From Armatimonadota bacterium (lineage in GTDB: Bacteria; Sysuimicrobiota; Sysuimicrobiia; Sysuimicrobiales; Sysuimicrobiaceae), in NCBI GenBank assembly GCA_031460175.1, contig JAVKGW010000002.1, positions 248,001 through 312,000 on the forward strand: DNA of 64,000 bases, given 5' to 3'. The notes beneath the pieces are model-generated. The model searched no databases. It was not told the DNA's origin and saw nothing but the letters and a program-made list of their open reading frames with translations. This document shows, in pieces, positions 16,494 to 47,665 of the stretch (its first letter is position 1; every line of letters starts with the position of its first letter). The translations under genes were made by a program, and so were the position numbers.

Positions 16494-16569
16494 TGGTGGG
16501 CCGTGCAGGACTCGAACCTGCAACCTTGGGATTAAGAGTCCCCTGCTCTACCAGTTGAGCTAACGGCCC
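16494..16569 (-). tRNA. tRNA-Lys (CUU)
   Basis: 76-nt tRNA with encoded CCA. The acceptor GGGCCGT pairs with ACGGCCC. The anticodon loop CTCTTAA gives CUU, reading AAG, the favoured Lys codon at this base composition. The D arm (GCTCAACTGGTAGAGC) and T arm (GCAGGTTCGAGTCCTGC) are complete. Confidence 0.96.
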
Positions 16570-24016: not shown

Positions 24017-24853
24017 ATGCGCTCGGGAACGCAGCGCCCGGATCCGTGGATCCGAGTGTACCTAAACCGGGTTTCGCGGAGCCCGCGCCTGACGCGGGAA
24101 GAGGAGGAGCGCCTCGGCCAGCGGATCCAAAGCGGGGACAAGGATGCCCTGCGGGTCCTCGTGGAAGCGCATCTCTACCTCGTGGTCTGCCTGGCCCGAC
24201 GGTTCGCCCGCCTCGGGGGATCCCTGCCGGACCTGATTCAGGAGGGCAACTTGGCCTTGGTAGAGGCCGCGGCCCGGTTCGACGGGCGGAGGGGTCAACG
24301 CTTCAGCACCTACGCCTCGTGGTGGGTCCGCCACGCCCTCCAGCGAGCCCTGGCGGAGCAGAACCGGGTCCTCCACCTCCCCACCTACCGCCGGCGGGAG
24401 CTGGCCAGCCTCCGGAAGGAGCAGCGGTCTCTGGCACAGCGCCTGGGGCGGGAGCCCACACCCCAGGAGATCGCCCGCGACCTGGGATGGCCCTTGGACC
24501 GGGTCCTTCAGGACCTGTCCCTCCTGGAGGCCCCCGTGTCCCTGGAGGCCCTGGTCCCCGACGACGACTTTGAGAAGCTCGTCCCGGCCCTGGAAGTCCC
24601 CGACCCGGACGAGGCACTGGCCCCCCGCCTGCGGCGGGAGGTCCTCCAGCGGCTGCTGGAGCGACTCCCCGAGCGCGAGCGCGCGGTCCTTCGGCTGCGC
24701 TACGGGCTCGACGGCGAACCCCCCCGGACCATGCGGGAGGTGGCCCGGAGGCTCGGGCTCACCGCGGAAGGGGTCCGGCAGGTGGAGCTGAGAGCCCTGG
24801 CCAAACTGCGCCGACCCGCCTGGCTGGCGCGCCTGCGGGATCTCGCCGGCTAA
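24017..24853 (+). CDS. RNA polymerase sigma factor, SigA/RpoD-like group 2
   Basis: 278 residues from the ATG at 24017. It contains region 1.2 ([18 protein letters not shown]), region 2 with [20 protein letters not shown] and the -10-reading [19 protein letters not shown], region 3, and region 4 with the helix-turn-helix ending [15 protein letters not shown]. The long N-terminal region of a primary sigma factor is absent, so this is a non-essential group 2 factor. The open frame extends upstream to 23837, but that part is low-complexity and overlaps the divergent kinase gene; the start is therefore not certain. The helices match RpoD closely, so promoters similar to housekeeping ones are expected. 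Confidence 0.9.
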
Positions 24854-33598: not shown

Positions 33599-33675
33599 TG
33601 GTCGGGCCGGCCGGATTTGAACCGGCGACCTCCTGAACCCCATTCAGGTGCGCTCCCAGGCTGCGCCACGGCCCG
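33599..33675 (-). tRNA. tRNA-Pro (GGG)
   Basis: 77-nt tRNA with encoded CCA. The acceptor CGGGCCG pairs with CGGCCCG. The anticodon stem CCTGA/TCAGG encloses loop ATGGGGT, giving GGG (reads CCC, frequent here). The T arm GCCGGTTCAAATCCGGC is perfect. It lies 52 bp before the alcohol dehydrogenase start on the same strand. Confidence 0.96.
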
Positions 33676-33711: not shown

Positions 33712-34293
33712 ATGGGTGGGATCCGCGCGGTCGTCCTGGCCTTGCTCGTCCTTCTGCTCTTCGTGGGCGTGGGCTACTTCTACAACAGCCCCTACGACGA
33801 CGTGATCGGCCTCGCGCACGCCCTGCGCTCCGGAGATCCCGAGGCGGCGCTCCGGTGGATCCACGTCCCCTCCCTCGCCGCGTCCGTGGTGGATGCCCTC
33901 GAGGAGATCTGGATCGCCCAACGGACGGGTGATCCAGATCGCTTTCCCCTCTCTCCCTGGCTGCGCCCATTCTTCCGGGCCGCCTTCGGCCTTGCCCGCC
34001 CCCTCGCCCAGCGACGGGTGGAGGCGGAGATCCGGGAGATGGTGCGCCGGATCGCCCTCGGCACCCCGGATGCGCCGGTCCATCTTCCCCGGTGGGGTGG
34101 GCTTCCCCTGACGGTCGCCGCGGTCCTCGCCCTCGTGCGATTCGAGGCGCTTCCCGAAGGCAAGATCCGCTTGTCCGTGTTGGGCCCATCCCCTCCCATG
34201 CAGCTGGTGCTGGCCCGCGCCGACGGCCGGTGGGTCATTGTGGCCGTGGACCACGCCTGGCTCCGGGGCCTCCTCGCCCCCCGGACCCGCTAG
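33712..34293 (+). CDS. DUF2939-like membrane-anchored protein
   Basis: 193-residue protein with a single N-terminal membrane helix (about 4-22) followed directly by GYFYNSPYDDVIGLAHALRS. The helix-SPY-repeated-helix pattern and later ESL-like repeats resemble DUF2939 proteins, which have no known function. The rest would be outside the cytoplasm. ATG with GGAGGAGGTC upstream. Its 3' end overlaps pilC by 4 bp, convergently. An alternative ATG at 33698 is in another frame and gives no useful product. Confidence 0.65.
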   Translation: MGGIRAVVLALLVLLLFVGVGYFYNSPYDDVIGLAHALRSGDPEAALRWIHVPSLAASVVDALEEIWIAQRTGDPDRFPLSPWLRPFFRAAFGLARPLAQRRVEAEIREMVRRIALGTPDAPVHLPRWGGLPLTVAAVLALVRFEALPEGKIRLSVLGPSPPMQLVLARADGRWVIVAVDHAWLRGLLAPRTR

Positions 34294-35507
34294 CCCGCCT
34301 GGGCCACCAGCTTGAAGATGGGCAGGTACAGGGAGATCACCATGGCCCCCACCACGGCCGCCATGAACACGATCATGGTGGGCTCCAGGGTGCTGGCCAG
34401 GGCCCCCACCGTGGCCTCCACCTCCGTGTCGTAGAAGTCCGCCACCTTCACCAGCATCTCGTCCAGGTTCCCCGCCTCCTCCCCGACCCGCACCATCTGC
34501 ACCACCATGGGAGGGAACAGTTGGATGGAGGAGAGGGGAACCGCGATGCTCTCCCCTTCCCGGATGCTGCTCCGCACCTTCTGAATGCCTTCCTCCACCA
34601 CCACGTTGTCCACCGCCTTCCCCGTCACCTCGAAGGCCTGCAGCAGGGGCACTCCGGCACCCAGGAGGGTCCCCAGGGTCCGGGCGAACCGGGCCAGGAT
34701 GGCCTTCTGCACGAGGGGCCCGAACAGGGGTAGGTGCAGTTTTGCCCGATCCCACCACGCCTTCCCGGCCGGCGTCCGGATCCACCGCCTGAGCCCGTAG
34801 GCACCCAGGGCCAGGGCGGGGACCCAGAGGTACCAGAAGGAGCGGATCATGAGGCTCACCCACATGAGGATCTGGGTGGGCACGGGGAGATCGCCGACAT
34901 TCAGCTCCCGATAGAACACCACGAACTGAGGGATGATGAACACCGTCATGAAGAGGAGCGCCAGGGTAGCCACCACGGCCAGGATCACGGGGTACACCAT
35001 GGCGGACCTGATCTTCTGGCGCAGCGCGTACTCCTTCTCCAGGAAGGTGGAGAGGCGCTGCAGCACGTCGTCCAGCACCCCGCCCGCCTCCCCGGCCCGC
35101 ACCATGTTCACGTACAGGGAGCTGAAGGCCTGCGGGTGCTTCGCCATGGCGTCCGCCAGGGCTCGCCCTTGCTCCACGTCCGCCCGCACCTGCGCCAGGA
35201 TCCGCCGTAGCTTCGGGTTGGTGGCCTGCTGCTCCAGGATGCTCAGAGCCCGCACCAGGGAGAGCCCGGAGTTCACCATGGTGGCGAACTGCCGGCTCAT
35301 GAGGGCGAGCTCCCGCAGGCTGATCCCTCGCAGGAGGTCCAACAGGCCGCGGGCCTCCCCCGGACCCGTCCGCAGGGGCTCGATGGCCGTGATGAAAAGC
35401 CCCATCTCCCGCAGCCGGCTCGCCACCTGGGCTCCGTTCTCCGCCTCCAGGACTCCCGTGATCACCCGGCCCATCTGATCCCGCGCCGTGTACTGAAAGA
35501 CGGCCAC
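34290..35507 (-). CDS. pilC: type IV pilus inner-membrane platform protein PilC
   Basis: 405-residue GspF-family protein anchoring the assembly and retraction ATPases to the inner membrane. It has two GspF repeats (first around LMSRQFATMVNSGLSLVRAL, second around ARTLGTLLGAGVPLLQAFE), each followed by membrane helices, and the usual VRVGEEAGNLDEMLVKVADFYD. It begins MAVFQYTARDQMGRVITGVLE, typical of PilC. GTG start with AGGAGGTGAG upstream, 15 bp after pilT. It may serve pilus biogenesis or a type II secretion/competence system; no pilin or secretin is in the window to decide. Confidence 0.95.
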   Translation of the reverse strand: MAVFQYTARDQMGRVITGVLEAENGAQVASRLREMGLFITAIEPLRTGPGEARGLLDLLRGISLRELALMSRQFATMVNSGLSLVRALSILEQQATNPKLRRILAQVRADVEQGRALADAMAKHPQAFSSLYVNMVRAGEAGGVLDDVLQRLSTFLEKEYALRQKIRSAMVYPVILAVVATLALLFMTVFIIPQFVVFYRELNVGDLPVPTQILMWVSLMIRSFWYLWVPALALGAYGLRRWIRTPAGKAWWDRAKLHLPLFGPLVQKAILARFARTLGTLLGAGVPLLQAFEVTGKAVDNVVVEEGIQKVRSSIREGESIAVPLSSIQLFPPMVVQMVRVGEEAGNLDEMLVKVADFYDTEVEATVGALASTLEPTMIVFMAAVVGAMVISLYLPIFKLVAQAG

Positions 35508-35522: not shown

Positions 35523-36680
35523 CTACCGGTGCCCCGCGATCATCTTCCGAAGTTCGTCGGGCCGGATGGCCCGGCTGATGGCGTCCTCGAAGGAGATGAG
35601 CCCCCGCTCGTAGAGGTCCCGCAGGGACTGGTCCATGGTCTGCATCCCGTGCTGGTGTCCCGTCTGGACCGCGGCGTCGATCTGATGGGTCTTCCCCTCC
35701 CGGATGAGGTTGCGGATGGCGGGTGTGGCGATCATCACCTCCACCGCGGGTACCCGTCCCACCTCCTCCAGGGTGGGCCATGTCCGGGGAACCGTGCTCA
35801 CCCCCCGCTCCCGCCGGGCCACCGGGAGCTGCTCCGGGCTCCCGTACCGGCGCAGGAACAGCTGGTTGGGCAGAAGCTGCTGGCTGATCACCGCCTCCAG
35901 GACGTTCGCCAGCTGCACCCGGATCTGTTGTTGCTGGTGGGGCGGGAAGACATCAATGATCCGGTCAATGGATTGCGCCGCGGTTCCCGTGTGCAGGGTG
36001 GCGAGCACCAGATGCCCGGTCTCCGCGGCGGTGAGGGCCAGGGCGATGGTCTCCAGATCCCGCATCTCTCCCACCATGATCACGTTGGGATCCTCCCGGA
36101 GGACCGCCCGCAGGGCATTCGGGAAGGATTGGGTGTCGAACCCCAGCTCCCGCTGGTTTACGATGCTCCGCTTGTGCTCGTGCAGGTACTCGATGGGATC
36201 CTCGATGGTGACGATGTGGCAGCTGCGCTCCTCGTTGATCCGGTCGATCATGGCCGCCAGGGTGGTGGACTTCCCCTGACCCGTGGGACCCGTGACCAGG
36301 ATGAGCCCCCGGGGCCGCCGGGTGAGCTCCACGAGGATCGGGGGGAGGTTGAGATCCTCGATCCTGGGGATCCGGTGAGGGATCACCCGGATGGCTATCC
36401 CCACCGCTCCTCGCTGCCGGTAGACGTTGACCCGGAACCGCCCCAACCCGCTCACCCCGTACGAGAGGTCCAGTTCCCAGGTCCGCTCGAACTTCTGCTT
36501 CTGGAACGCGTTCATCATGCTGTAGGCCAGCTGGTACGTGTCCTCGGGGGTGAGCACGGGGTAGTGGGCCATGGGCACCAGTCGCCCCCAGATGCGCAGG
36601 GTGGGCTGGATCCCCGCGGTGAGGTGGAGATCCGAGGCCTGATGGTCCACCGCGTACTGCAGCAGCTCGTGGATCTCCAT
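35523..36680 (-). CDS. pilT: type IV pilus retraction ATPase PilT
   Basis: 385-residue secretion ATPase that disassembles the pilus. It has the PAS-like N-terminal domain (LLQYAVDHQASDLHLTAG), Walker A GPTGQGKSTT at 131-140 (Gln where most have Ser), the Asp box and Walker B VIMVGEMRDLET, and the His box GHLVLATLHTGTAAQSIDRI. The characteristic AIRNLIREGKTHQI near the C-terminus separates PilT from PilB. ATG with GGAGGAAGG upstream. It follows the DnaB-like gene by 16 bp and leads into pilC, giving a three-gene unit. Confidence 0.95.
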   Translation of the reverse strand: MEIHELLQYAVDHQASDLHLTAGIQPTLRIWGRLVPMAHYPVLTPEDTYQLAYSMMNAFQKQKFERTWELDLSYGVSGLGRFRVNVYRQRGAVGIAIRVIPHRIPRIEDLNLPPILVELTRRPRGLILVTGPTGQGKSTTLAAMIDRINEERSCHIVTIEDPIEYLHEHKRSIVNQRELGFDTQSFPNALRAVLREDPNVIMVGEMRDLETIALALTAAETGHLVLATLHTGTAAQSIDRIIDVFPPHQQQQIRVQLANVLEAVISQQLLPNQLFLRRYGSPEQLPVARRERGVSTVPRTWPTLEEVGRVPAVEVMIATPAIRNLIREGKTHQIDAAVQTGHQHGMQTMDQSLRDLYERGLISFEDAISRAIRPDELRKMIAGHR

Positions 36681-36696: not shown

Positions 36697-38235
36697 CTAG
36701 AAGGCGGCAGGCTGGGGCCTCAGGAGCCCCGACTCCCGCAGCACGTTGTACATTTCCACGATCTTGGCGAAGGCCCGGTAGTCGCCCCGGTATTCCTTCT
36801 CCAGCTTGAAGCCGATCTCCACGAACCGGTTCAGGGTGACGAAGAAGGCGAACTGCACGATGTTCGCTTCCGCCTCCGGCGCATCCCGGTTCTTGTCGAT
36901 GAAGAGGTTAAGGATATCGATCTTCGGGAGTGTATCCGGATCGATCCCCTCCTGTCGCGCCTTGGATTCCAGGTACTCCCGCAGATCCTGGGTGGCCTTC
37001 CAGTCCTTCACCAGCACCATGGCCACGTCCAGGTCGTACTCCAGGTCCCCGGAGCCCACGCTGTGGTGCATGGTGGGCCGCGCGTAGGGGCTTCCGAGCT
37101 CCTCCTCCGCGGGCTTCTCATCCAGCCGACACCCCTCCTTGTCGAGGGGGGAGATGGCCACGACGGGCGCCCGCAGCTCCAGGCTGAGCTCCGCCAGTTG
37201 GCTGCTGATGAGGTCCGTACGGGCCTTGTCGTCTTCGATGGGCTGCGGGAGGGGGATCTTCTGGAGGTAATCGAGACAGATGAGGATCTGGTCAGTGCCG
37301 TGCTCCTGCATCACGTTGTAGGCGTGGACCTTGATCCGGTCCAGGGTATCCTTCCGGCCTGCCTCGATGAGGTAGAAGTACGGGGCGTACTGGAAGACAT
37401 TCTCCTCCGCCCGCCGCAGGGAAGCCAGGAGTGCGGGCGTACGGTCCAGGTTGCCGCTGAGAAGGTCCGCGGGATTCACGAGGAGCTCCTTCGCCAGCAG
37501 GCGGGCGGCCAGCACCTGGGCCGTCTGCTCCCAGCTGTAGTAGAGGACGGGAATCCGGTGGTTCCGGGCCACGTAGCTGGCCATCTGGAGCACCAGGTTC
37601 GTCTTGCCCCGCCGGGGTGCTCCTGCCAGCCCGTAGTAGAATCCCGGACGCAAGCCGGACAGCACCTGGTTAAGCCGATCGAAGGGGGAGATGGAGTATC
37701 CCAGGATCCCTGCCCGCTGGGGATCCCGCACGTGCTCCACGAGGTCCTGCAGGAGCTCGCTCACGGGCACCAGACGCTTTCGCAGCCTCCGCTTCTGGAG
37801 CTCGAAGAGCTCCGTGATCACCTCCCCCGTGAACTGCAGGATCTCGTGGGTTCCCGCTCCGGGACTGCGCTGGAGGAACTCCTGGATGCGCTGCTCCACC
37901 GCCTCCAACCGCCTCCGGCTCTCCCGGCCCTTCAGCAGTTCCAGATAGGCCACCAGCTGGGCCGCGGTGGGAGGACGGGTCACGGAGAGGGCCGCCACCG
38001 CCTTCTCCATCTCCGGGGTCAGGAGTCCCCGCTCCTGCAGGTGCGCGGTCAGGGTCACCGCATCCAACGCCATCCCCCGGGTCAGGCAGGCCTCCAGGAG
38101 GACCCGTCCCAACCGCTGCATGACGGGGTGGCTCAGCAGCTCCGGACTGAATCCCTCGTCCAGGGCCAGGGTCAGGAGGTGGCGGTCCGCCACCATCCCG
38201 CTCAGAACCATCAGCTCCGCCGCTTCGAAGTCCAT
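36697..38235 (-). CDS. DnaB-family RecA-fold ATPase encoded in the type IV pilus cluster
   Basis: 512-residue protein with the two-domain layout of replicative helicase DnaB. The N-terminal helical domain (about 5-120) resembles the DnaB N domain, and a RecA-like ATPase domain follows. Walker A is GAPRRGKT at 205-212 and Walker B LICLDYLQKI has Asp322. Lys and Thr of the P-loop are kept, but the segment differs from the DnaB consensus (ARPSMGKTA). The C-terminal third has no helicase signature I recognise. It sits upstream of pilT and pilC and divergent from pilB, not near replication genes. It could be a moonlighting or specialised ATPase, a second DnaB, or a KaiC-related protein. Start at the ATG at 38235; a longer frame runs into the divergent promoter region. 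Confidence 0.75.
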   Translation of the reverse strand: MDFEAAELMVLSGMVADRHLLTLALDEGFSPELLSHPVMQRLGRVLLEACLTRGMALDAVTLTAHLQERGLLTPEMEKAVAALSVTRPPTAAQLVAYLELLKGRESRRRLEAVEQRIQEFLQRSPGAGTHEILQFTGEVITELFELQKRRLRKRLVPVSELLQDLVEHVRDPQRAGILGYSISPFDRLNQVLSGLRPGFYYGLAGAPRRGKTNLVLQMASYVARNHRIPVLYYSWEQTAQVLAARLLAKELLVNPADLLSGNLDRTPALLASLRRAEENVFQYAPYFYLIEAGRKDTLDRIKVHAYNVMQEHGTDQILICLDYLQKIPLPQPIEDDKARTDLISSQLAELSLELRAPVVAISPLDKEGCRLDEKPAEEELGSPYARPTMHHSVGSGDLEYDLDVAMVLVKDWKATQDLREYLESKARQEGIDPDTLPKIDILNLFIDKNRDAPEAEANIVQFAFFVTLNRFVEIGFKLEKEYRGDYRAFAKIVEMYNVLRESGLLRPQPAAF

Positions 38236-38266: not shown

Positions 38267-38403
38267 TAATGCAAGTTCCGTTCCACTCTCACCGCCAGAG
38301 GGTTCTGCGTCCCCCTACCGGACCCCTCCTCGACTCCGCGGAGAGACCATCGGGGGCACGTCCCGGGAAGGCCGCGACCCTGGGATCCTGGCATGGATCT
38401 TGC

Positions 38404-38409
38404 TATAGT
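38404..38409 (+). promoter_or_regulatory. candidate -10 element before pilB
   Basis: TATAGT, five of six bases of the -10 consensus, lies 19 bp before the preferred pilB start. There is no good -35 at 16-18 bp. Its position argues for the downstream ATG at 38429, because the ATG at 38393 would lie upstream of the transcription start. Confidence 0.35.
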
Positions 38410-38428: not shown

Positions 38429-40732
38429 ATGGCCAAAGTGGAGGACGCGCTCACCCGAAGGGACGGATCGGACCCTCAAGGGAGCACCCTCATCCAGATG
38501 TACAAGAACCTCCTCAGGCTCCCACCGGGGAACCGGACGCTGGAGTGCGCCTTCCGGTACCACCAAGCCACGCGGCATCTCCGGAACGGCCGTCTTCTGG
38601 ACGCCATCCGGGACTACAAGCACCTCCTGGAACTGGATCCCGAGGACCCCTCCGTCTACCTGGACCTCGCGGAGCTGTACCTGAAGAGCGGAACCGCGAA
38701 GGAGGCCGCGGGGGTTCTCCGGGCCCTGGGGGCGTTGTACCGGAGGGAGGGGATGGAACAGGCCGCCCAGGAGGTGGAGACCCGCGCCCGGGCCCTGGAG
38801 GGGAACGAAAATGGCGCAGCACCTCCCGCGAGCCCTAAGGCCCCGGCCGCGGAGGCAGAAGAGGGATCCGCCTCCGTCTCCACGGTGGAGGTCCGGGCGG
38901 AGGCGAGGATGGAGGACACCGCCCCGGACGCGGTGGACGAGGGGGGAGCGGGCTTGCCGGCGCGGGTATCCCAGACTCCTCCCCGGCCCACGCGCCCCAC
39001 GGACCGCCCGCCCACGCGTCCTGGGGGACCCGCGCTGGGGAAGCGGGAACCCCTGGGGCGCATCCTCCTCCGCATGGGCCTCGTGACGGAGGAACAGCTG
39101 GAGCAGGCCCTCGCGATCCACGAGCGCACCCGGGAGAAGCTGGGGCGCATCCTGGTCTCCATGGGGGTCATCACCGAGCAGGACCTGGCAAAGGCCATCG
39201 GGATCCAGTGGAATTACCCCTATGTCGCTCTCTCCTCCGCGGGAGTCGATCCGGAGGTGGTGCGGATGGTACCGCACCACCTGTGCATCCGGCACAAGGT
39301 GCTGCCCTATGCCCGGAACGGCGATAAGCTGTTGGTGGCCCTGGTCGACCCCCTGAACCTCCTCGCCCTGGACGACGTGCGGCTCATCACCGGTCTCGAC
39401 GTGGAGCCCCGGGTCACCACGGAGGAGGAGCTCCTCCAGGCCATCCACAAGCACCACCAATTGGGCTCCCTCCTGGAGCAGACCGCGCACGTGGAAGTGG
39501 GCCCCGAAGCCCCCGTCGAGGAGGAGATCAGCCTGGACCGGCTCCGCCAGATGGTGGACGAGGCGCCGGTGGTCAAGCTTGTGAACCTCATCCTCGACCA
39601 AGCCATCCGGGAGGGGGCTTCGGACATCCACATCGAGCCCTACCGGCACGGGATCCACGTGCGCTACCGGATCGACGGGGTCCTCCACGACGTCCTGAGC
39701 CCTCCCAAGAACCTCAAAGCCGCCCTGGTGTCCCGGATCAAGATCATGGCAAACCTGGACATCGCGGAACGACGCCGACCGCAGGACGGCCGCATCCACC
39801 TGCGGGTGGACGGTCGGGAGATCGACCTGCGGGTCTCCACCCTCCCCACCATGTTCGGGGAGAAGGTGGTGATGCGGATCCTGGACCAGTCCGGCGCGCT
39901 CATCCAGCTGGGGCAGCTGGGCATGGCCAGCGATGTCCAGGAGACCTGGGAGCGCTTGGCCACCAAGCCGTACGGCATGCTCCTCATCACGGGCCCCACG
40001 GGGAGCGGAAAGACCACCACCTTGTACGCCACCCTCACGAAGATCAACACCCTGGAGAAGAACATCATCACCATCGAGGATCCGGTGGAGTACCAGCTCC
40101 CTCGAATCAACCAGGTGCAGGTGAACCCGAAGGCGGGGCTTACCTTCGCCACCGCCCTCCGCTCCATCCTCCGTCAGGACCCAGACATCATCATGGTGGG
40201 GGAGATCCGGGACCGGGAGACCGCGGAGCTGGCGGTACAGGCGGCCCTCACGGGCCACCTGGTGTTCAGCACCCTCCACACCAACGACGCGGCAAGTGCC
40301 TTCACGCGCCTGCTGGACATGGGCATCGAGCCGTATCTCGTGGCCAGCTCCGTCATCGGGGTGATGGCGCAGCGGCTGGCCCGGAAGGTCTGCCCCCGGT
40401 GCAAGGAGCCCTATCGGGCTCCGGGAGAGGCCGTCCGCCGGCTGAGCGAGGACCTGGCGGAGGTGGAGGAAGAAGTGGTCCTGTACCGGGGAGCGGGCTG
40501 CGAGGCGTGTCGTCACACGGGGTACAAGGGGCGGGTGGGGGTGTTCGAACTCCTGGTGGTGAGCGACCGGATCCGATCCCTGGTCCTCGCCCGCGCCCCC
40601 TCCACGGAGATCCGGGGGGCGGCCCGCTCCGAAGGGATGCGCACCATGCGGGAGGACGGTCTCCAGAAGGTGCTGGAGGGGCTCAGCACCGTGGAGGAGG
40701 TCCTCCGGGTGGTGTACAGCACGGAGGCGTAG
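38429..40732 (+). CDS. pilB: type IV pilus extension ATPase PilB with N-terminal TPR domain
   Basis: 767-residue GspE/PilB ATPase that drives pilus assembly. The N-terminus (about 33-120) has TPR-like helices (LRNGRLLDAIRDYKHLLEL, DPSVYLDLAELYLKSG), which PilB normally lacks. A Pro/Ala-rich linker leads to an MshEN c-di-GMP-binding type region (LGRILLRMGLVTEEQLEQAL and LGRILVSMGVITEQDLAKAI). The motor has Walker A GPTGSGKT at 522-529, Walker B IIMVGEIRDRET and the four-Cys zinc site CPRCK...CEACRHTGYKG. Start ATG at 38429 has AAGGTAG upstream; 38393 is an in-frame alternative. It is divergent from the dnaB-like-pilT-pilC unit. Confidence 0.94.
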   Translation: MAKVEDALTRRDGSDPQGSTLIQMYKNLLRLPPGNRTLECAFRYHQATRHLRNGRLLDAIRDYKHLLELDPEDPSVYLDLAELYLKSGTAKEAAGVLRALGALYRREGMEQAAQEVETRARALEGNENGAAPPASPKAPAAEAEEGSASVSTVEVRAEARMEDTAPDAVDEGGAGLPARVSQTPPRPTRPTDRPPTRPGGPALGKREPLGRILLRMGLVTEEQLEQALAIHERTREKLGRILVSMGVITEQDLAKAIGIQWNYPYVALSSAGVDPEVVRMVPHHLCIRHKVLPYARNGDKLLVALVDPLNLLALDDVRLITGLDVEPRVTTEEELLQAIHKHHQLGSLLEQTAHVEVGPEAPVEEEISLDRLRQMVDEAPVVKLVNLILDQAIREGASDIHIEPYRHGIHVRYRIDGVLHDVLSPPKNLKAALVSRIKIMANLDIAERRRPQDGRIHLRVDGREIDLRVSTLPTMFGEKVVMRILDQSGALIQLGQLGMASDVQETWERLATKPYGMLLITGPTGSGKTTTLYATLTKINTLEKNIITIEDPVEYQLPRINQVQVNPKAGLTFATALRSILRQDPDIIMVGEIRDRETAELAVQAALTGHLVFSTLHTNDAASAFTRLLDMGIEPYLVASSVIGVMAQRLARKVCPRCKEPYRAPGEAVRRLSEDLAEVEEEVVLYRGAGCEACRHTGYKGRVGVFELLVVSDRIRSLVLARAPSTEIRGAARSEGMRTMREDGLQKVLEGLSTVEEVLRVVYSTEA

Positions 40733-40736: not shown

Positions 40737-41093
40737 CTAAAGCGCCTCCACCACGGCCGCTCGGCGCTTCCGGAGCTCCAGTCGCACCCGCCCCAGGGTG
40801 GCCGAGCCGGTGGTGACGACCACCAGCATGGCCTCCTGCCCCGCGGGTGCCACCACCACCACCCCGTCCTCGTACTCCAGCATCACGCTCACCAGCTGCC
40901 CCCGCCGGAGGTCCGCGGACAGGATCTCCGAGGCCCCGAGCGCACTCGCGGTCACGGCGCCCACCGCCTCCAGATCCAGGTCTTCCTCCGCGCTCACCCC
41001 CCCGATCAGAAACCCATCCCTTCCCACCACCAGGGCGGCGGCCACTCCATCCACCCGGGCGAGCTCTGCCAGGATCGTACGCAGATCCGTCAT
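40737..41093 (-). CDS. roadblock/LC7 domain protein (MglB-like)
   Basis: 118-residue single-domain roadblock protein. It has the typical VDGVAAALVVGRDGFLIGG start, LDLEAVGAVTASALGASE helix and the VVVVAPAGQEAMLVVVT strand pair. Bacterial roadblock proteins such as MglB dimerise and control small Ras-like GTPases (MglA) in polarity and pilus placement; no MglA is in the window. ATG at 41093 after GGGGGAAG. It is the last gene of the minus-strand cluster starting with yqeG or roadblock 2, convergent to pilB with 4 bp between. Confidence 0.85.
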   Translation of the reverse strand: MTDLRTILAELARVDGVAAALVVGRDGFLIGGVSAEEDLDLEAVGAVTASALGASEILSADLRRGQLVSVMLEYEDGVVVVAPAGQEAMLVVVTTGSATLGRVRLELRKRRAAVVEAL

Positions 41094-41103
41094 CTTCCCC
41101 CTC

Positions 41104-41892
41104 CTAGGATTTGTCCTCGCGGGGCATCGCCGCTCGCACAAGCACGCTCAGACGGTCCAGGGCCCGGTGCAGGACCCGGGAGATCTGTCGCTGGGACATC
41201 CGGAGCCATCGGGCAGCTTCCGTCTCCGTCAGGTCCAGGTAAAACAGGGCGTAGATCACCTTCCGTTCCACCTCCCGCAGCCGCTCCAGGGCCGCCAGAA
41301 CCGTGATGCGGTCCTCGATGGGAAGTTGAAAGCTCTCGTATCGCTGATGTCGCAGGGAAGCCCGCAACCGCCGGACCTCCTCCGGCTCCAGGACCAGGGG
41401 GGTTCGCATGGCCCGCAGCCGCAGGATCCGTTCCACACCCTCCGGCGCCACGTTCATGGCCCGCGCCAGCTCCTCCACGGTGGGGGGCCGGCCCCGGGTG
41501 GTCCAGAAGGCCTCCACGGCCCGGTCCATCTCCCTCAGCACCTTCCCCAGCCACCGGGGAAGCCGGATGAGGCGACCGTGGTCCCGCAGATGGTGTCGGA
41601 TCTCCCCAGCCACCAGGGCCGCCGCGTAGCTCCGGAAAGGGACCCCTTTCCCCGGGTCATACCGGTTCAGGGCCTGCAGCAGCCCCACGTGCCCCACCTG
41701 AACCAGGTCCTCCAGGGGTTCCCCCCACCCGCGGAACTGGGACGCGATACGGCGCACCATCGGCTCGAACCAGGCACTCAACCGGGCCTGGACCATGGGA
41801 TCCCGGGAACGGAGGTACTCCCGGAGCAGTGCCTCGACCTCCTCCTCCGTCACGCTCTCGTCCTCTGCCGCCGGATAAACCGGTAGATCCAT
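41104..41892 (-). CDS. alternative sigma-70 factor (SigB/SigF/FliA-like group 3)
   Basis: 262 residues. Region 2 contains PLEDLVQVGHVGLLQALNRYDPGKGVPFRSYAAALVAGEIRHHLRD, split here by design: the core is DLVQVGHVGLLQALNRYD. Region 3 has GRPPTVEELARAMNV and region 4 ends with the helix-turn-helix LTETEAARWLRMSQRQISRVL. These match group 3 sigma factors (sporulation, stress, flagella). A matching anti-sigma or anti-anti-sigma gene is absent, but roadblock and unknown proteins flank it. The start may be ATG at 41892 (43-bp overlap with the upstream gene) or GTG at 41853, whose GTGA overlaps that gene's stop; the latter would trim 13 residues. Confidence 0.88.
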   Translation of the reverse strand: MDLPVYPAAEDESVTEEEVEALLREYLRSRDPMVQARLSAWFEPMVRRIASQFRGWGEPLEDLVQVGHVGLLQALNRYDPGKGVPFRSYAAALVAGEIRHHLRDHGRLIRLPRWLGKVLREMDRAVEAFWTTRGRPPTVEELARAMNVAPEGVERILRLRAMRTPLVLEPEEVRRLRASLRHQRYESFQLPIEDRITVLAALERLREVERKVIYALFYLDLTETEAARWLRMSQRQISRVLHRALDRLSVLVRAAMPREDKS

Positions 41893-42674
41893 TTCCGCCG
41901 CTGGAGTTGGAGCAAGATCCGTTCCAGTTCGTCCGGGGGATGGGCCAACTCCTGCCGCAATCGGTGGAGGTCCCGGGTCCCGTCCAGGAGCTCCAGGATC
42001 CGTCCGGCGAGCGGACCCAGGGCCTCCACGACCTCCTGGAGATGGAGGCCAGGAGCCGGGATAAACACCTCATCTCCCCGGAAGGAGGTCCAGGGCGCCT
42101 CCGGCTCCTCGGAGGCCCTCCAAATGTCTATCTCCGCGGGCAGAAGGGCGAGCTCGGAGACGAGCCCGGCCGGGTCCCGCTCGCTCGCCGCCTCCCGGTC
42201 GTAGTACAGGGCCTGGGAGGCGGGAAGGGACAAGAACGCCCACCATCCGGTCCCCCGGACCACCATCACCCCCTGGAATCCCTCCTGCAGGAGGCGATGG
42301 TGGAGAGAGGCCAGCCGGATGAACTCCGTGGAGAGATCCCGGTGCAGGAGTTGACCTCTCGTCATCCGCCGGAGGATGGAGACTACCGGCGGAGGAAGGG
42401 CCATCACCTCCGCCTCCGCGTTCCCCTCCTCAAGGAGCCGGAGGATCTGCCGGGTCGCCTCCGGGTCCTGGACCAGTATCCTGCCGGCTTCGAACAGGGC
42501 AGAGGGAGTCTCCTGTGCTTGCACCACGAGGGCTGCTTCCCAATCCGGTCCCCGGAGGCGCACCACTCCGTGGAAGGTCTGCCCGTGCAGGGCTGCGAGC
42601 AGCTCCTGCATCTCCGAGGCCGAGGGAAGGAGCCGCCGTTCCACCGTCCGGCCTACCGGGAGCCGCTCCAACAT
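41850..42674 (-). CDS. protein of unknown function with two DUF4388/PATAN-like modules
   Basis: 274 residues, no signal peptide or membrane segment. Two internal modules of about 85 residues can be seen: one around LLAALHGQTFHGVVRLRGPDW (residues 25-45) and one around LLQEGFQGVMVVRGTGWW (about 127-144). Each has a helix, then F-x-Gly-Val-Val, then strands. A C-terminal stretch (ILELLDGTRDLHRLRQEL, then LLQLQRRKWIYRF) looks like a winged helix. The F-G-V-V module recurs once in the gene at 43465-44208. The pattern recalls DUF4388/PATAN domains found with roadblock and pilus proteins, but I cannot confirm the family. It overlaps the sigma-factor gene, suggesting joint control. Confidence 0.7.
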   Translation of the reverse strand: MLERLPVGRTVERRLLPSASEMQELLAALHGQTFHGVVRLRGPDWEAALVVQAQETPSALFEAGRILVQDPEATRQILRLLEEGNAEAEVMALPPPVVSILRRMTRGQLLHRDLSTEFIRLASLHHRLLQEGFQGVMVVRGTGWWAFLSLPASQALYYDREAASERDPAGLVSELALLPAEIDIWRASEEPEAPWTSFRGDEVFIPAPGLHLQEVVEALGPLAGRILELLDGTRDLHRLRQELAHPPDELERILLQLQRRKWIYRFIRRQRTRA

Positions 42675-42677
42675 GGG

Positions 42678-43457
42678 TCAACCTTCCGTCCGCAAGATGG
42701 CCTCGTGCCACATGCCCCCGGCGGCCAGGAGGGCGAACCCCGCCATCTCCAGGATGTTGCCGGGATGCCCTTCGAACCAGGTTCCGTAGAACACCGCATT
42801 TACCAGCCACATGATGCCCACCGCGAGGCACAGCATCCCTGCCGAGAAGAGGGCCCAGGCGTAGCTCCACAGTCCCCCCAGGAAGGCGACCGCGGGCGCA
42901 AGGCCGAGGGGCACCAGGAGGACGGCGAGGAAGGCGAACAGGAGACCCACAAGATCCCGCGTCGTCAGCGGGCTTTGGCCCAGCACGGGCCGCAGGAAGA
43001 GGGCAGCTCCCAGGGCGAGCACCGCGAATCCCACCACGGCCAGAAAGGCGAGCTGAGGTCTCGTGAGCAGGCCCAGTCCCCGGATCCGTCTCACCTCTCC
43101 CCCCACCGCAGCCAGGACGACCAGGAAAAACGCCGCGGTGAACACATCGCCCTCGGGCGAGCGCCCTCCCATTCCCCTGTAGTGGTGGAGGGCGAAGGCC
43201 ACGCGTCCCAGGGCCCAGAGAAGGAAGGCCACGGAGAGCCCCAACCATACCCGCCGCTCCCGGTCTTCGGGCCGGTAGGCCCGGGCGGTCCCGAAGGTCG
43301 AGAGGGCTGCGAGGAAGGGGAACAGCACGAGGGCCCCATGGACCCGGAGCGCCTGCCACTCTCTGGCCGCGATTCCCAGAGGACGTTCCAGCACCGCCCA
43401 CGTGGCCAGCAGGAACAGGACCGCGATGACTCCCCCGAAGAAGTAGAACCGGCGCAT
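42678..43457 (-). CDS. polytopic membrane protein, unknown function
   Basis: 259 residues with seven or eight predicted membrane helices (about 5-24, 38-58, 70-88, 102-118, 130-151, 166-183, 188-215, 238-250). No family motif is recognised. A conserved-looking His pair (ALHHY) follows helix 3 and the C-terminus has GGMWHEAILR. Seven-helix sensor domains coupled to kinases have a similar size, so it may be a sensor, but it could equally be an exporter. It begins 7 bp after the upstream DUF4388-like gene and ends 3 bp before the next one; all three are probably co-expressed. Confidence 0.7.
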   Translation of the reverse strand: MRRFYFFGGVIAVLFLLATWAVLERPLGIAAREWQALRVHGALVLFPFLAALSTFGTARAYRPEDRERRVWLGLSVAFLLWALGRVAFALHHYRGMGGRSPEGDVFTAAFFLVVLAAVGGEVRRIRGLGLLTRPQLAFLAVVGFAVLALGAALFLRPVLGQSPLTTRDLVGLLFAFLAVLLVPLGLAPAVAFLGGLWSYAWALFSAGMLCLAVGIMWLVNAVFYGTWFEGHPGNILEMAGFALLAAGGMWHEAILRTEG

Positions 43458-43464
43458 CTCGTCC

Positions 43465-44208
43465 TCAGGATCCCGTGATCCGCCTAGACAGATCCGGGTC
43501 GGTCACTCCCATCTCCCGGAGCAGGCCCTGCACCGCGCGCGCCAGGAACGCCCGGCCGGCCACCTCCCGGATGACCTCCGCGCAGCGCGCGACCGCGGCC
43601 CTCAGGAAGGGGATCTCCACGGAACCCTGGAGCCGTCCTCCCACAAAGGACCCTCCGGTCCCGGAGAGGACCGCCTGGATCTCCGCCTCCAGCTGGCGGG
43701 CTGGCCCCGGGCCCGCGAGCTTCCGATACCGCTGAAACAGGCCTTCTAGCACCCCCACCCAGACCTCCACACCTTCTGTGCCCGGCGCTTCCCGTCCGCC
43801 TCCTGGGAGGACCTCCGATGCAGGTTCCGAGGGCACGGGCTGGGGCTCCGGGGGTTCGATCCATGCCTCGGGAAAGAGCTCTTCCGGCAGGGGATGGACG
43901 GAGACGACGCCCTCCGGCTGCTCGCCCTCCCGGACCAGGAGGGCCACGGCCGTCTCCGGTTCCGCCAGGGCTCCGGAGGGCGTCCGAGCATAGCGGACCC
44001 TGCCCCGGAACAAGAGGAGGTGATAGGCCCGCTGCGGCCACCGGACGGCGATCACCCCGCTGAAGGACCGGCGTCGCAGGAACGCCATCAGGCCCTCCAG
44101 GTCCGTGTAGGCGGTGGCGAGATCCTGGTAGAGGGGCGGAGCCTCAAGCCCCTCGTTCAGAAGATCCACCAGCCGCCCTCCCTCCTGCCCTACAGGATCG
44201 GAGATCAT
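43465..44208 (-). CDS. protein of unknown function with one DUF4388/PATAN-like module
   Basis: 247 residues, soluble. The N-terminal module LMAFLRRRSFSGVIAVRWPQ (about 40-59), followed by YHLLLFRGRVRYARTPSG, is closely similar to the two modules of the gene at 41850-42674 and has the strongest DUF4388/PATAN look (F-G-V, then a G-x-V-x-YA strand). A Pro/Glu-rich linker leads to a mainly helical C-terminus (LEGLFQRYRKLAGPG onward) without known relatives. Start ATG at 44208 with GGGAGAGGG upstream. Function unknown; its neighbours suggest a regulatory complex with roadblock proteins. Confidence 0.7.
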   Translation of the reverse strand: MISDPVGQEGGRLVDLLNEGLEAPPLYQDLATAYTDLEGLMAFLRRRSFSGVIAVRWPQRAYHLLLFRGRVRYARTPSGALAEPETAVALLVREGEQPEGVVSVHPLPEELFPEAWIEPPEPQPVPSEPASEVLPGGGREAPGTEGVEVWVGVLEGLFQRYRKLAGPGPARQLEAEIQAVLSGTGGSFVGGRLQGSVEIPFLRAAVARCAEVIREVAGRAFLARAVQGLLREMGVTDPDLSRRITGS

Positions 44209-44225
44209 CGCCCTCTCCCAAGGGT

Positions 44226-45209
44226 CTACCGGATTCCCCGTTCCCGGTAGTACCGTAGGGCCCCCGCATGCATCGGGATGGGCATCCCCTGGCGGGCGGT
44301 CTCCGGCCGGATGTCCCGCCCCCGTGCGTGCGCCTGATGGAGGACCGCGACGTTCTCCCACAGGGCCTTGGTGAGCTCGTAGAGGAGAGCGTCGGGCAAG
44401 TCCGCCCGGGTGATGAGCATGGCCATCACCGCCGCGGTGGGGACCGCTTCCGGCTGTCCCCGATACGTGTTGGGCGGGATCGTCTGCGGCGTGTAGTACG
44501 GGTAGCGCTCCCGGAGGCGGGCCAGGACCCCGGCGGGAATGGGGAGGATCCGGATGTCGCGGACCGCGGCGATGTCCTGGATGGCCGCGGTGGGGATTCC
44601 CGCGGTGAGGAAGGCGGCGTCGATCACCCCGTCCTTCAGCTGATCCGCGGCCTCCGCGAAGCTGAGGAACTCCGCGATCACGGTTTTCGCGAGTCCGTGG
44701 ATGTGCCGGGTCTGGGCGTACCCGATGTCGTAGGCCCGCAGGATCTGGCGGGCGTTCACCTCCGTCCCGCTCCCCGGAGCCCCCACGGCCACCCGCTTTC
44801 CCACCAGGTCCTCGATGGAGCGGATCCCCTTGCCCTGCAGGGTGACCACCTGGACGGTCTCGGGGTACAGCATGGCCATGCCCCGCAGACGCGTTTGGGG
44901 GTCCCGGCTGAACATCTCGACGCCATGGTAGGCGTAGTACACGATGTCGTTCTGGGCGAAGGCCACCTCCACGTCTCCCCGGCTGATGAGCCGGATGTTG
45001 GCGACGGAGGCGCCCGTCGCCTGCGCCGTGGCCTGGACGCCTGGAACCCGCTCCGTCCACATCCGGGCCAGGGCGGAGCCGAGGGGAAAGTACACCCCCG
45101 CGGTCCCGCCCGTGGCGATGTTGATGAAGCGGCGGGGCTGCGCCCCTGCTCCTCCGATGCCGATGGCCGTGCCCAAAGCCAGCACGATGAGGAACCGGAC
45201 CCCACGCAA
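44226..45209 (-). CDS. TAXI family TRAP-type substrate-binding protein, orphan
   Basis: 327-residue exported binding protein. The signal peptide (residues 1-23, cleavage after AGA) is followed by the TAXI signature FINIATGGTAGVYFPLGSAL, GASVANIRLISRGDVEVAFAQND, and GKRVAVGAPGSGTEVNARQIL. TAXI proteins feed TRAP transporters with dicarboxylates or glutamate-like ligands, but no DctQ/DctM permease gene is here. It may serve a distant permease or a signalling role. TTG start at 45209 after GAGGGGGG. It lies 70 bp downstream of a second binding protein. Confidence 0.92.
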   Translation of the reverse strand: MRGVRFLIVLALGTAIGIGGAGAQPRRFINIATGGTAGVYFPLGSALARMWTERVPGVQATAQATGASVANIRLISRGDVEVAFAQNDIVYYAYHGVEMFSRDPQTRLRGMAMLYPETVQVVTLQGKGIRSIEDLVGKRVAVGAPGSGTEVNARQILRAYDIGYAQTRHIHGLAKTVIAEFLSFAEAADQLKDGVIDAAFLTAGIPTAAIQDIAAVRDIRILPIPAGVLARLRERYPYYTPQTIPPNTYRGQPEAVPTAAVMAMLITRADLPDALLYELTKALWENVAVLHQAHARGRDIRPETARQGMPIPMHAGALRYYRERGIR

Positions 45210-45279
45210 GCGTATCCCCCCTCAGGCCTATGGATTTTCCATCCCCCGCTCCCGAATCCCCTCCGGCCTTCCACGGGCC

Positions 45280-46410
45280 TCACGGCACCACCACGAACCG
45301 GGAACCCTGCACCCGGAGGACCATGGCCTCCCGGGCCGCGTTCCCCGATGGGTCGAAGCGGAGCGTTCCCGTGACTCCCGGATAGTCCTGTAGGCCAGCC
45401 AGGGCGTTGCGGACCCGGGTCCGATCTAGAGGACCCGTAGGCGGAATCCGGATCTGTTTTAAGGCGAAGGCGAGCACCTTGACCGCGTCGTATGCCTGCG
45501 CGGCGAAGGCGTCGGGAGTTATGCCGTACTTCCCCCGGTAGGCCCGGACGAAACCCCGGACCGCCGGGACGGTGCTCTCCGGGAAGAAGGTGGAGACGAC
45601 CACAAGACCCTCCGCGGCTCCGCCCAGGGCCGTCACCACCTCGGGGTTCGCGAAGGCGTCCGGAGCGAGCACCGGGAGTTTCAGACCCGCCTCCACCGCC
45701 TGGGCGAGGAAGACCCGCCCCTCGTCCGGGTAGCCCGCGAAGAGCACCGCCTGCGCGTTCTCGGAACGGATGGCCTGGAGGAAGGGACGGAAATCCCGGG
45801 TACCGTCCTGGAACCTCCGCTGTCCCGTCACCGATCCCCCTCCCGGCCCCAGGAAGGCCCCCACGAAGGAATTGGCCACGGAGGCCCCGTACTCGGTGGT
45901 GTCGTGCAGCACGGCCACCCGTCGGAGGCCGGACCGCCGGGCGAAGGCGGCCAGGGCCTGTCCTTGGAGGCTCGCGGGGAGGGCGGTGCGGAAGAAGAAG
46001 TTCCCCGCAAAGGGGATCTCGCCCGTGGCCCCGGGACTGATCAGGGGGACCTGAGCGCGGAAGGCGGCGGGGGAGAGGGCGATGGCCACGGTGTCCGTGA
46101 ACCCACCGATCACCGCGGCGACCCGGGGCGATGCCACAGCTTCCGCGAAGAGAGCCCCCGCCCGCTCGAGGGAGCCGCGATCGTCCGAGATGCGGAGGTC
46201 CATCCGGATCCGGCCCTCCGCGTTCACCTCTTCCACGGCCAGCTGAACTCCGCGCTGGGCGCTCAGGGCCGCCTCCGCCACTCCACTGGTGAGGGGAAGG
46301 AGGCAAGCGACCCCCACCTCCGCGGGACCCCGGGTGCCTTGACATCCGATCAGAAGTCCCAGAATGGGGACCCAGAGCAGGCGGAGGTTCCTCCGTCGGA
46401 TGGCCATCAA
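45280..46410 (-). CDS. LivJ-type ABC transporter substrate-binding lipoprotein, orphan
   Basis: 376-residue lipoprotein of the branched-chain amino-acid/amide binding family. The lipobox LLIGC places Cys near residue 23, after which the mature protein has ACLLPLTSGVAEAALSAQRG, VNAEGRIRMDLRISDDRG and AVIGGFTDTVAIALSP. The fold also works as a ligand sensor (AmiC-like). No livHMGF permease or ATPase genes lie nearby. Two start codons overlap the lytic transglycosylase stop (ATGATG); either gives the same protein with or without one Met. It is translationally coupled to the transglycosylase, unusual for a transporter subunit. Confidence 0.92.
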   Translation of the reverse strand: MMAIRRRNLRLLWVPILGLLIGCQGTRGPAEVGVACLLPLTSGVAEAALSAQRGVQLAVEEVNAEGRIRMDLRISDDRGSLERAGALFAEAVASPRVAAVIGGFTDTVAIALSPAAFRAQVPLISPGATGEIPFAGNFFFRTALPASLQGQALAAFARRSGLRRVAVLHDTTEYGASVANSFVGAFLGPGGGSVTGQRRFQDGTRDFRPFLQAIRSENAQAVLFAGYPDEGRVFLAQAVEAGLKLPVLAPDAFANPEVVTALGGAAEGLVVVSTFFPESTVPAVRGFVRAYRGKYGITPDAFAAQAYDAVKVLAFALKQIRIPPTGPLDRTRVRNALAGLQDYPGVTGTLRFDPSGNAAREAMVLRVQGSRFVVVP

Positions 46411-47297
46411 GATCCTCCATCCAGCATGCGCCGGTACAGGGAGAGGACGTTATAGACGTACCACCGGGTCTCGCTGTAGGGGGGAATCCCCCGGTGGGCG
46501 GCCACCGCGCTCCGCCCCGCGTTGTAAGCGGCCAGAGCGAGCGGCAGGTTGTGGTACCCGTAGTGCTCCAGGTGGCCCCGCAGAACCCGCACCGTTCCGT
46601 ACACGTTCTCCACCAGGTCGAACGGTCGCAAGACTCCCGCCGCCCGGGCGGTCCCCGGCATCAGCTGACCCAACCCCATGGCCCCGGCCCGGGAGACGGC
46701 CATCGGGTTGAAGCCCGACTCCACCGCGATCACCGCGGCCACCAGCCGGGGATCTACGTTGAAGCCGCGCGCGTATCCCACGATGGCCGTTCCGATGCGG
46801 AGGGCCTCCTCGGGCGTAAGGCGGGGATTGTAGCTCCGGGCCATCCAGGCGTACGTGCGGGGGTCTACCGCGGCCATCCGGGACGGGATCCGTGCCCAGG
46901 TCGCCCGTATCCCCCAGAGGGCGTACCGGGCGGCCTCGCTCTCCGGTGCCATGCGGATCACCTGGCGGAACAGCTCCTGAGCCCCTCGGCGGTCTCTGAG
47001 GGCCGCCCGGGCATAGCCGAGCCAGAGGAGAGCCCCGGGGTCCCAGGGCCGCAGTTGAACCGCCCGCTCCAGGGCCCATCGAGCCAGCCGTCTCCGCCCC
47101 GCCTGGTAGGCACTCGCCCCGAGCCACGTCCAGACGAGCCCGTCTCCGGGGTGCCGCCGGACCATCCCGAAGAAGACATCCGCCGCCTCCCCGTAGCGGC
47201 CCGCCCGATACAACGCAACTCCCTGGGCCCATCCGGGACTTGCGGCTTGCACGTGTGTTGCCATGGCACCCACCAGGAGGAGGGCTGCGCCCCTCAT
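46407..47297 (-). CDS. lytic transglycosylase with TPR-like region
   Basis: 296-residue exported protein. A signal peptide (about 1-18) is followed by TPR repeats (ALYRAGRYGEAADVFFGMV, ALLWLGYARAALRD). A C-terminal SLT domain follows with catalytic Glu in AVESGFNPMAVSRAGAMG, then GLGQLMPGTA and ALAAYNAGRSAV. It cleaves peptidoglycan glycan strands, often to open the wall for pili or secretion machines. It overlaps the second roadblock gene at its start (ATGA) and the LivJ-like gene at its stop. Position between a roadblock protein and binding proteins suggests a job in assembly of an envelope complex. Confidence 0.9.
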   Translation of the reverse strand: MRGAALLLVGAMATHVQAASPGWAQGVALYRAGRYGEAADVFFGMVRRHPGDGLVWTWLGASAYQAGRRRLARWALERAVQLRPWDPGALLWLGYARAALRDRRGAQELFRQVIRMAPESEAARYALWGIRATWARIPSRMAAVDPRTYAWMARSYNPRLTPEEALRIGTAIVGYARGFNVDPRLVAAVIAVESGFNPMAVSRAGAMGLGQLMPGTARAAGVLRPFDLVENVYGTVRVLRGHLEHYGYHNLPLALAAYNAGRSAVAAHRGIPPYSETRWYVYNVLSLYRRMLDGGS

Positions 47298-47665
47298 GGA
47301 ACGCTGGAACGGAGGTGGGAAGCCACCCGGTCCAGGGACTTCTTCATCAGGAGGCGGGCCTTGCCGAGGTTCCCACCCTGCCGGAGGACGATCACGAGGG
47401 CGTAATCGATCTCCACCGCGCTGACCACCAGCACCGCCTTCTCCCCGGAAATCACACAGTACTCCAGGGGGCCTCCGTTCACCTTCCGCACCAGGTAGGC
47501 GCTCAGCTTGGTCAGCACGCCGAGATCCGGACCCGCCCGGCCCACCGACAGGGCTCCGTCCACGGAGTGGATGTCCACCACCTCCCCGTCCAGGCGGATG
47601 ACCGCTGCGCAGGCCGCGCCCTCCACGTTGGCCACCATCTCCCGGAGGATCTCTCTCAGCGCCAT
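47294..47665 (-). CDS. roadblock/LC7 domain protein, second copy
   Basis: 123-residue roadblock domain: ANVEGAACAAVIRLDGEVVD, the helix LTKLSAYLVRKVN, and the strand pair EKAVLVVSAVEIDYALVIVL. It is distantly similar to the copy at 40737-41093, so the two could form a heterodimer or work at different points. Start MALREILREM at 47665. It overlaps yqeG at its start by 10 bp and the transglycosylase at its stop by 4 bp, placing it inside one transcript with both. No Ras-like GTPase is nearby. Confidence 0.8.
   Translation of the reverse strand: MALREILREMVANVEGAACAAVIRLDGEVVDIHSVDGALSVGRAGPDLGVLTKLSAYLVRKVNGGPLEYCVISGEKAVLVVSAVEIDYALVIVLRQGGNLGKARLLMKKSLDRVASHLRSSVP

Follow-up and report, generated by a model that had tools for sequence, protein, structure and literature searches.

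A conserved sigma factor and roadblock gene set that may link c-di-GMP to type IV pili in the phylum Sysuimicrobiota

Within a 64,000-nucleotide stretch of an Armatimonadota bacterium genome (GTDB phylum Sysuimicrobiota; assembly GCA_031460175.1, contig JAVKGW010000002.1, positions 248,001 to 312,000; hereafter, the window), nine genes encoding two roadblock proteins (RB1 and RB2), a sigma factor, two DUF4388-like proteins (D43a and D43b), a membrane protein (MEM), a lytic transglycosylase (SLT), and two solute-binding proteins of the LivJ and TAXI types lie beside the type IV pilus genes pilB, pilT, and pilC (Table 1). Our comparisons suggest that this block makes up the regulatory half of a locus for type IV pili, governed by cyclic diguanylate (c-di-GMP) and a SigF-like sigma factor, a reading to which we assign a probability of roughly 0.78. 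As judged from motifs and gene positions, the sigma factor very probably controls pilus genes, and c-di-GMP, acting through riboswitches and the MshEN domain of PilB, would be the best-supported input, rather than a ligand in the envelope. A first-pass annotation of the window had described the block as an envelope ligand sensor that controls a sigma factor and perhaps pilus activity. Of that proposal, the conserved gene set tied to type IV pili together with a sigma factor stands; the core of this set excludes LivJ, TAXI, D43a, D43b, and MEM, all of which are missing from two families (f4 and f5).

The phylum sample comprised 43 genomes from seven families (given f-numbers here; that of the window is f1) in one order, and neighborhoods were compared using our own gene calls, with approximate start sites, on 28 loci from 28 phylum genomes. 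CSP1-3 is the phylum now called Sysuimicrobiota (PMC11604079); the main text of that paper describes flagellar motility and does not mention pili, sigma factors, riboswitches, or c-di-GMP (PMC11604079). The first-pass annotation had suggested searching for shared neighbors across genomes, and the 28 loci contain a conserved gene set, without the scatter of homologs expected of an unlinked collection. Since the arrangement recurs across the phylum, it is not due to chance. In f1 and f2, the order is RB2-SLT-LivJ-TAXI-D43a-MEM-D43b-sigma-RB1, next to or near pilB, a dnaB-like gene, pilT, and pilC, and some f2 loci lack LivJ and TAXI. The f4 loci read SLT-sigma-MerR-RB2-RB1-pilB-pilB2-pilT-pilC and the f5 loci sigma-MerR-RB2-RB1-pilB-dnaB-like-pilB2-pilT-pilC, making SLT a kept neighbor in f1, f2, and f4. 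The small gene by the sigma gene encodes a MerR-type regulator that is positioned elsewhere in f1 and f2; no MerR gene was found in the cluster of the window's genus. Close relatives of the sigma factor occur in 40 of the 43 genomes. From these gene orders, the core is the sigma factor, the MerR-type regulator, the two roadblocks, and pilB/pilT/pilC, to which the binding proteins, DUF4388-like proteins, and membrane protein are a sub-operon added in two families.

Outside f1, the sigma gene is regularly preceded by an RNA aptamer. Rfam scans of the 22 non-f1 loci, each from a different genome, identified 34 c-di-GMP-I-type aptamers (RF03167 or RF01051), each in the coding orientation and 2–340 nt 5′ of a cluster gene. 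Twenty lie directly before the sigma gene, four before LivJ, four before D43a, three before pilB, and three before a pilT copy, with two of the last heading a pilT-sigma arrangement. A class I aptamer over the Rfam gathering score leads into the sigma operon in all 22 genomes, and many of the aptamers are followed by terminator-like hairpins. Neither the window nor its f1 relatives gave a riboswitch at this locus in Rfam scans, which included permissive scans for a degenerate form. Elsewhere in the window's genome (2.49 Mb), around 466 kb on contig C1, minor-pilin genes are preceded first by a sigma54-type site and then by a c-di-GMP-II riboswitch that carries a terminator-like hairpin (L111:1587-1737).

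The loci also share a candidate promoter, GNCTA-N15-GGGYATA, for which 917 kb were scanned. There are 17 strict matches (0.3 expected), all intergenic and with a single spacing; with the motif relaxed, 28 of 28 matches are intergenic in sequence that is 88% coding. The motif precedes the dnaB-like/pilT/pilC operon in all eight f2 genomes having that region; ten genomes from f1, f2, and f4, among them the window's own, have it before pilin genes. In f2, it also lies before the LivJ or D43a operon, 5′ of the aptamer; in two genomes it precedes RB2, and in two (G001 and G002) the sigma gene, again 5′ of the aptamer. With a GNNT-type –35 element, a GGGYAT-type –10 element, and fixed spacing before its targets, it has the form of SigB/SigF-type promoters. 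Its match to the SigB-type consensus GTTTAA-N12-14-GGGWAW (PMC8346170) fits the class of the cluster sigma factor, which contains regions 2, 3, and 4 and whose best model, TIGR02980, scores 152 bits against a curated cut-off of 234; the second-best sigma match, the cyanobacterial SigF model (6.7e-43), is also below its curated cut-off. We recognized the motif in the very loci examined here, and the position weight matrix was trained on part of the sites that it later matched; support that is independent of training comes from the constant spacing, the location between genes, and the majority of the aptamer-linked sites, which the training set did not include. Fixed SigF-, SigA-, and FliA-type patterns gave nothing useful 5′ of the pil genes; both the GNCTA motif and the sigma54-type sites described below emerged on inspection of the sequences themselves. 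Two proteins with no Pfam match are encoded beside the sigma gene at other loci, each with a strong GNCTA-N15-GGGYATA site (L102:5917-7152, 411 aa; L103:7273-8775, 500 aa), and in two f5 genomes the sigma gene is present twice at the locus (L099:8154-10128; L100:9459-11424).

For sigma54-type –24/–12 sites, we scanned the 64-kb window and 224 kb of its genome. Allowing at most one mismatch to TGGCACRNNNNTTGCW, the window contains three sites (0.43 expected), all in the pilus/sigma locus. The site before pilB is kept in G036 and occurs in G035 as TGGCACGGGAGTTGCT. Because the possible site before the sigma gene overlaps the D43b coding sequence, its conservation is ambiguous. The 224 kb contain 13 sites (2.2 expected), most of them before pilins, pil operons, and GGDEF and HD_5 genes, with perfect matches at pilin loci. 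In f4, a sigma54-type site lies 5′ of the riboswitch and sigma gene. At another locus of the window's genome (L250:7513-10265; C3:15000-34999), genes for an HD_5 (HD-GYP-type) protein and a GGDEF protein are grouped with a pilin operon, and each of the three has a separate sigma54-type site.

If the block regulates the neighboring pilus genes, how might it do so? For most of the phylum, the Rfam matches and their positions suggest that the sigma operon is transcribed through a c-di-GMP-type riboswitch. The SigB/SigF-like factor could then transcribe from GNCTA-N15-GGGYATA before the pilins and the dnaB-like/pilT/pilC genes, as the motif, its fixed spacing, and its targets would indicate. In f2, the same factor may also act on the LivJ-TAXI-D43a-MEM-D43b operon and RB2, and in some genomes on its own gene, giving positive feedback. 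In f1, sigma54-type sites may direct transcription of pilB, dnaB-like/pilT/pilC, the pilins, a diguanylate cyclase gene, an HD-GYP-type gene, and perhaps the sigma gene, so that sigma54-type control would stand where other families have a riboswitch; c-di-GMP input would persist through the class II riboswitch before the minor-pilin operon and through PilB MshEN. From their families, the MglB-/MglC-like roadblocks and DUF4388 (PATAN)-like proteins would act post-translationally on the pilus motor or its placement, and they probably do so if MglB/MglC in Myxococcus (PMC7949163, PMC10329633) and PATAN-PilB1 in Synechocystis (PMC7690835) are a guide. More speculatively, LivJ and TAXI may bind ligands outside the membrane, with MEM relaying their state to D43a and D43b. 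Still more ambitious, and offered tentatively as something we think rather less probable than not, is a phylum-wide c-di-GMP-to-sigma relay, in which a riboswitch-gated, partly self-activating SigF-like factor and an MglA-free MglB/MglC-like pair would be joined by a ligand-binding branch (LivJ, TAXI, an eight-helix receptor, and the PATAN-like proteins) feeding an extracellular signal to the motor.

Several points weigh against reading the block as the regulatory half of the pilus locus. All of the regulatory claims rest on sequence. That c-di-GMP is the ligand of the c-di-GMP-I-GGC variant aptamer is presumed from the aptamer family, and the assignment of the GNCTA motif to the cluster sigma factor comes from its class and from co-occurrence. 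In the window's genus, the strict motif was found only at the pilin locus and not within the cluster. Neither RpoN nor an enhancer-binding protein was found by signature motif in the 224 kb, and an RpoN search of the whole genome was not made. D43a, D43b, MEM, LivJ, and TAXI were seen in f1 and f2 only, and part of the neighborhood (alaS-ruvX-mltG) is old synteny that is found in Actinomycetota too. No phylum genome passes the DUF4388/PATAN (PF14332) cut-off; as the match in the window (E = 0.02) is below threshold, "-like" is the right word for D43a and D43b. Finally, an Arf-family search of the genome for an MglA-type Ras-like GTPase returned only frames read as IF-2 and Obg and, with no MglA detected, the roadblocks cannot work exactly as they do in Myxococcus.

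What do the binding proteins do? One possibility, which we regard as unlikely, is that they are ordinary transport subunits that serve distant permeases and lie in the locus through co-regulation only. Elsewhere in the window's genome there are 44 LivH/LivM-family and 7 DctM-family permease matches. However, no permease is present among the locus genes of the window or its conserved relatives, in keeping with the original description of binding proteins lacking transporters, and the position of LivJ and TAXI is constant in f1 and part of f2. Moreover, the two proteins share 25–35% identity with their permease-linked relatives in the same genome (at most 30% for LivJ and 35% for TAXI, among relatives recovered around the permease loci fetched from that genome), as against 41–92% with in-cluster orthologs from other genera (41–86% for LivJ, 57–92% for TAXI). 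By these identities LivJ and TAXI are dedicated in-cluster orthologs, which makes a sensing role plausible, and envelope ligand sensing by LivJ/TAXI with MEM is a candidate.

It is a larger step to suppose, as the first-pass annotation did, that the block is an envelope sensor. In such a scheme, LivJ and TAXI would bind the ligand, MEM would transduce the signal, and the sigma factor would be gated by D43a/b and the roadblocks much as by an anti-sigma factor, with pilus control secondary. The binding proteins are better conserved than D43a/b as well as being dedicated and free of adjacent permeases; in f2 they share a promoter and riboswitch with D43a-MEM-D43b. LivJ-fold regulators also exist, and AmiC, which regulates the amidase operon, is among the distant LivJ matches in PDB. 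We nonetheless consider this scheme decidedly doubtful, as the sigma factor, MerR-type regulator, roadblocks, and riboswitch occur without LivJ, TAXI, MEM, or D43 genes in f4 and f5. Since the core lacks LivJ and TAXI in these families and in some f2 loci, the two would not be needed for it.

The reading that we prefer, of the block as the regulatory half of the pilus locus, also requires that the cluster sigma factor recognize the GNCTA motif. Another sigma factor or the MerR protein may do so instead, leaving the cluster factor with different targets; several related sigma factors are present in f5 genomes, and the window's genome encodes a FliA-like factor beside che genes, a primary factor, and one further. 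MerR operators are palindromic, whereas the motif is not and has the two-box form of SigB-type promoters. Sigma factors that are autoregulated often have a site of their own type before their own gene, and in G001 and G002 the motif precedes the riboswitch and sigma gene itself, all of which makes a different reader improbable. That common descent alone keeps the sigma, roadblock, and pil genes together, as the alaS-ruvX-mltG-...-pilB-pilT-pilC order shared with Actinomycetota might suggest, is very hard to credit, given that a common promoter motif and riboswitches mark one regulon despite changed gene order and that distant pilin genes bear the same GNCTA motif.

The roadblock proteins reported at each end of the block were recovered, RB1 by Pfam and RB2, which has no Pfam match, by profile only. 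The two profiles align with 98.8% probability. The RB1 family profile matches bacterial roadblock proteins and MglB structures (4e-14 to 4e-9), and in the alignment of the RB2 profile with Myxococcus MglC, D26, G27, and the K-x-R pair are aligned; relatives of RB2 occur in 35 of the 43 genomes. Matches of the RB2 profile to hemagglutinins were set aside as noise (E > 0.06). Similar to Myxococcus MglA/MglB/MglC, the locus thus contains an MglB-like and MglC-like pair in which the MglC residues are kept (PMC10329633, PMC7949163); unlike in Myxococcus, the pair is encoded with a sigma factor and an MglA-type GTPase was not found. A pilus motor that has MglB/MglC-like roadblocks but no detected MglA is of interest in itself.

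Roadblocks neighbor such motors in other phyla as well. In Actinomycetota (Solincola and relatives; L158, L165, L179, L180), three roadblocks, a 1173-aa DUF4388 protein, and a Ras-like GTPase are encoded beside pilB-pilT-pilC; among these relatives of RB1 the order is alaS-ruvX-mltG-...-three roadblocks-DUF4388 protein-Ras-like GTPase-aroE-pilB-pilT-pilC. As in our locus, the pilus motor there has roadblocks and DUF4388 for neighbors within a shared alaS-ruvX-mltG context; the differences are the Ras-like GTPase and the large size of the DUF4388 protein, and neither a sigma factor nor an Rfam riboswitch was found in those loci. In many methanogens of the Methanomicrobiales (L132-L198), RB1-like roadblock pairs lie directly 5′ of a PilB-like secretion ATPase. 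The two groups independently connect roadblocks, DUF4388, and pilus or secretion ATPases, and suggest that the control of secretion ATPases by roadblocks is more ancient and more widespread than the Myxococcus example.

Each element of the locus has a precedent. In Synechocystis, a group 3 SigF-type factor drives pilin genes, including pilA1, and the PATAN regulators PixE, PixG, and LsiR are DUF4388/PATAN-type proteins tied to the PilB1 motor (PMC7690835). By contrast, the sigma, DUF4388-like, and pil genes described here share one locus with roadblocks and riboswitches, the DUF4388-like proteins are without a receiver domain, and both SigF and PATAN membership are below cut-off. Type IV pilus genes are headed by c-di-GMP riboswitches in Clostridioides difficile also, where pilA1 is under a class II riboswitch and the flagellar operon under one of class I (PMC6366702). 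Here, instead, the riboswitch lies directly before a SigB/SigF-like sigma gene inside the pilus locus, and the predicted regulon is the pilus. The C. difficile flgB operon, which is under the other riboswitch, includes sigD, a sigma-factor target. We found no relevant literature on DUF4388 with roadblock proteins or on their combination with sigma factors and, within the literature searchable here, the combination of elements and its presence across the phylum appear to be new. For an uncultured phylum, the locus offers a testable wiring diagram of surface behavior that runs from second messenger to RNA switch, sigma factor, and pilus, and the regulon can be predicted in further phylum genomes from where the motif and riboswitches lie.

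D43a and D43b are related, as was first proposed: they share a domain (profile comparison, 96–97%). Against bona fide DUF4388 domains of other phyla, hhalign gave 74% for D43a and 28% and 7% for the D43b domains, with reversed controls below 1%. The AlphaFold2 model of D43b consists of two alpha/beta domains and a C-terminal winged-helix-like part; the only fold-search matches for D43b were multi-domain ones to sliding clamps (TM < 0.2), which are meaningless. MEM, described initially as having seven to eight helices, is modeled by AlphaFold2 with eight. It has no Pfam or NCBIfam match, and its fold search returned nothing significant (G protein-coupled receptor-like matches, E > 0.09). The TAXI protein matches TAXI/NMT1_3 domain models at 2e-89 to 2e-102, and its closest solved structures are 1us4/1us5.

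The nine minus-strand genes lie at the coordinates first given for them (Table 1), with overlaps or short gaps and a single sizeable gap of 70 bp between LivJ and TAXI (45210-45279). A codon-usage gene caller recovered all nine, with shorter starts for LivJ and SLT, and their order is kept in orthologous loci of the same genus. The SLT domain (1e-21) and TPR matches bear out the lytic transglycosylase. Domain searches likewise confirmed that pilB, on the plus strand, and the minus-strand dnaB-like/pilT/pilC genes adjoin the block; pilB, pilT, and pilC are all in the window (T2SSE, T2SSF, and MshEN matches), as expected of a type IV pilus locus. The DnaB-helicase-like RecA ATPase that heads the pilT/pilC operon is a constant member of the pil locus in f1, f2, and f5. 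Prepilin genes exist in the window's genome, where N_methyl gave ten matches, of which six exceed the cut-off. Prepilin-like genes are also located between yqeG and SLT in G017, and in G003 pilin-like genes lie 3′ of RB1.

Table 1. Genes and candidate promoter sites of the pilus locus in the window. pLDDT, predicted local distance difference test; pTM, predicted template modeling score.
Feature	Position	Strand	Evidence and remarks
pilC, platform protein	34290..35507	-	T2SSF 6e-66
pilT, retraction ATPase	35523..36680	-	T2SSE 6e-49
DnaB-like RecA-fold ATPase, first gene of pilT/pilC operon	36697..38235	-	DnaB_C 7e-26
Sigma54-type site before dnaB-like/pilT/pilC	38270..38285	-	TGGAACGGAACTTGCA, 1 mismatch; kept in G036, G035
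Sigma54-type –24/–12 site before pilB	38389..38404	+	TGGCATGGATCTTGCT; 1 match in 64 kb, 0.02 expected
pilB, extension ATPase with TPR and MshEN (c-di-GMP-binding type) domains	38429..40732	+	T2SSE 2e-147, MshEN 2e-20
RB1, MglB-like roadblock protein	40737..41093	-	Robl_LC7 2e-16; adjoins sigma gene or pilB phylum-wide
SIG, SigB/SigF/SigG-like group 3 sigma factor	41104..41892	-	Sigma70 r2/r3/r4; TIGR02980 1.4e-44
Possible sigma54-type site before sigma gene, within D43b coding sequence	41911..41926	-	TGGAACGGATCTTGCT, 1 mismatch; also in G036
D43b, two DUF4388-like domains and C-terminal winged-helix-like part	41850..42674	-	AlphaFold2 pLDDT 88.6
MEM, membrane protein with eight predicted helices, candidate receptor	42678..43457	-	AlphaFold2 pLDDT 88.6, pTM 0.88
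D43a, DUF4388-like domain and helical C-terminal part	43465..44208	-	Pfam DUF4388 E 0.02, below cut-off
TAXI-family solute-binding protein, without adjacent permease	44226..45209	-	TIGR02122 1.8e-102
LivJ-type binding protein, predicted lipoprotein (LLIGC motif), without adjacent permease	45280..46410	-	Peripla_BP_6 8e-54
SLT, exported TPR and lytic transglycosylase protein	46407..47297	-	SLT 1e-21, TPR matches; signal-peptide-like start
RB2, MglC-like roadblock protein	47294..47665	-	Family profile matches MglC 8.6e-15

Elsewhere in the window, another sigma factor (265 aa; 24056-24853, plus strand) is encoded beside GAF-like and response-regulator genes, with no relation to the pilus locus seen. 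The window also contains three tRNA genes, at 16339-16420, 16497-16569, and 33602-33675 (minus strand).

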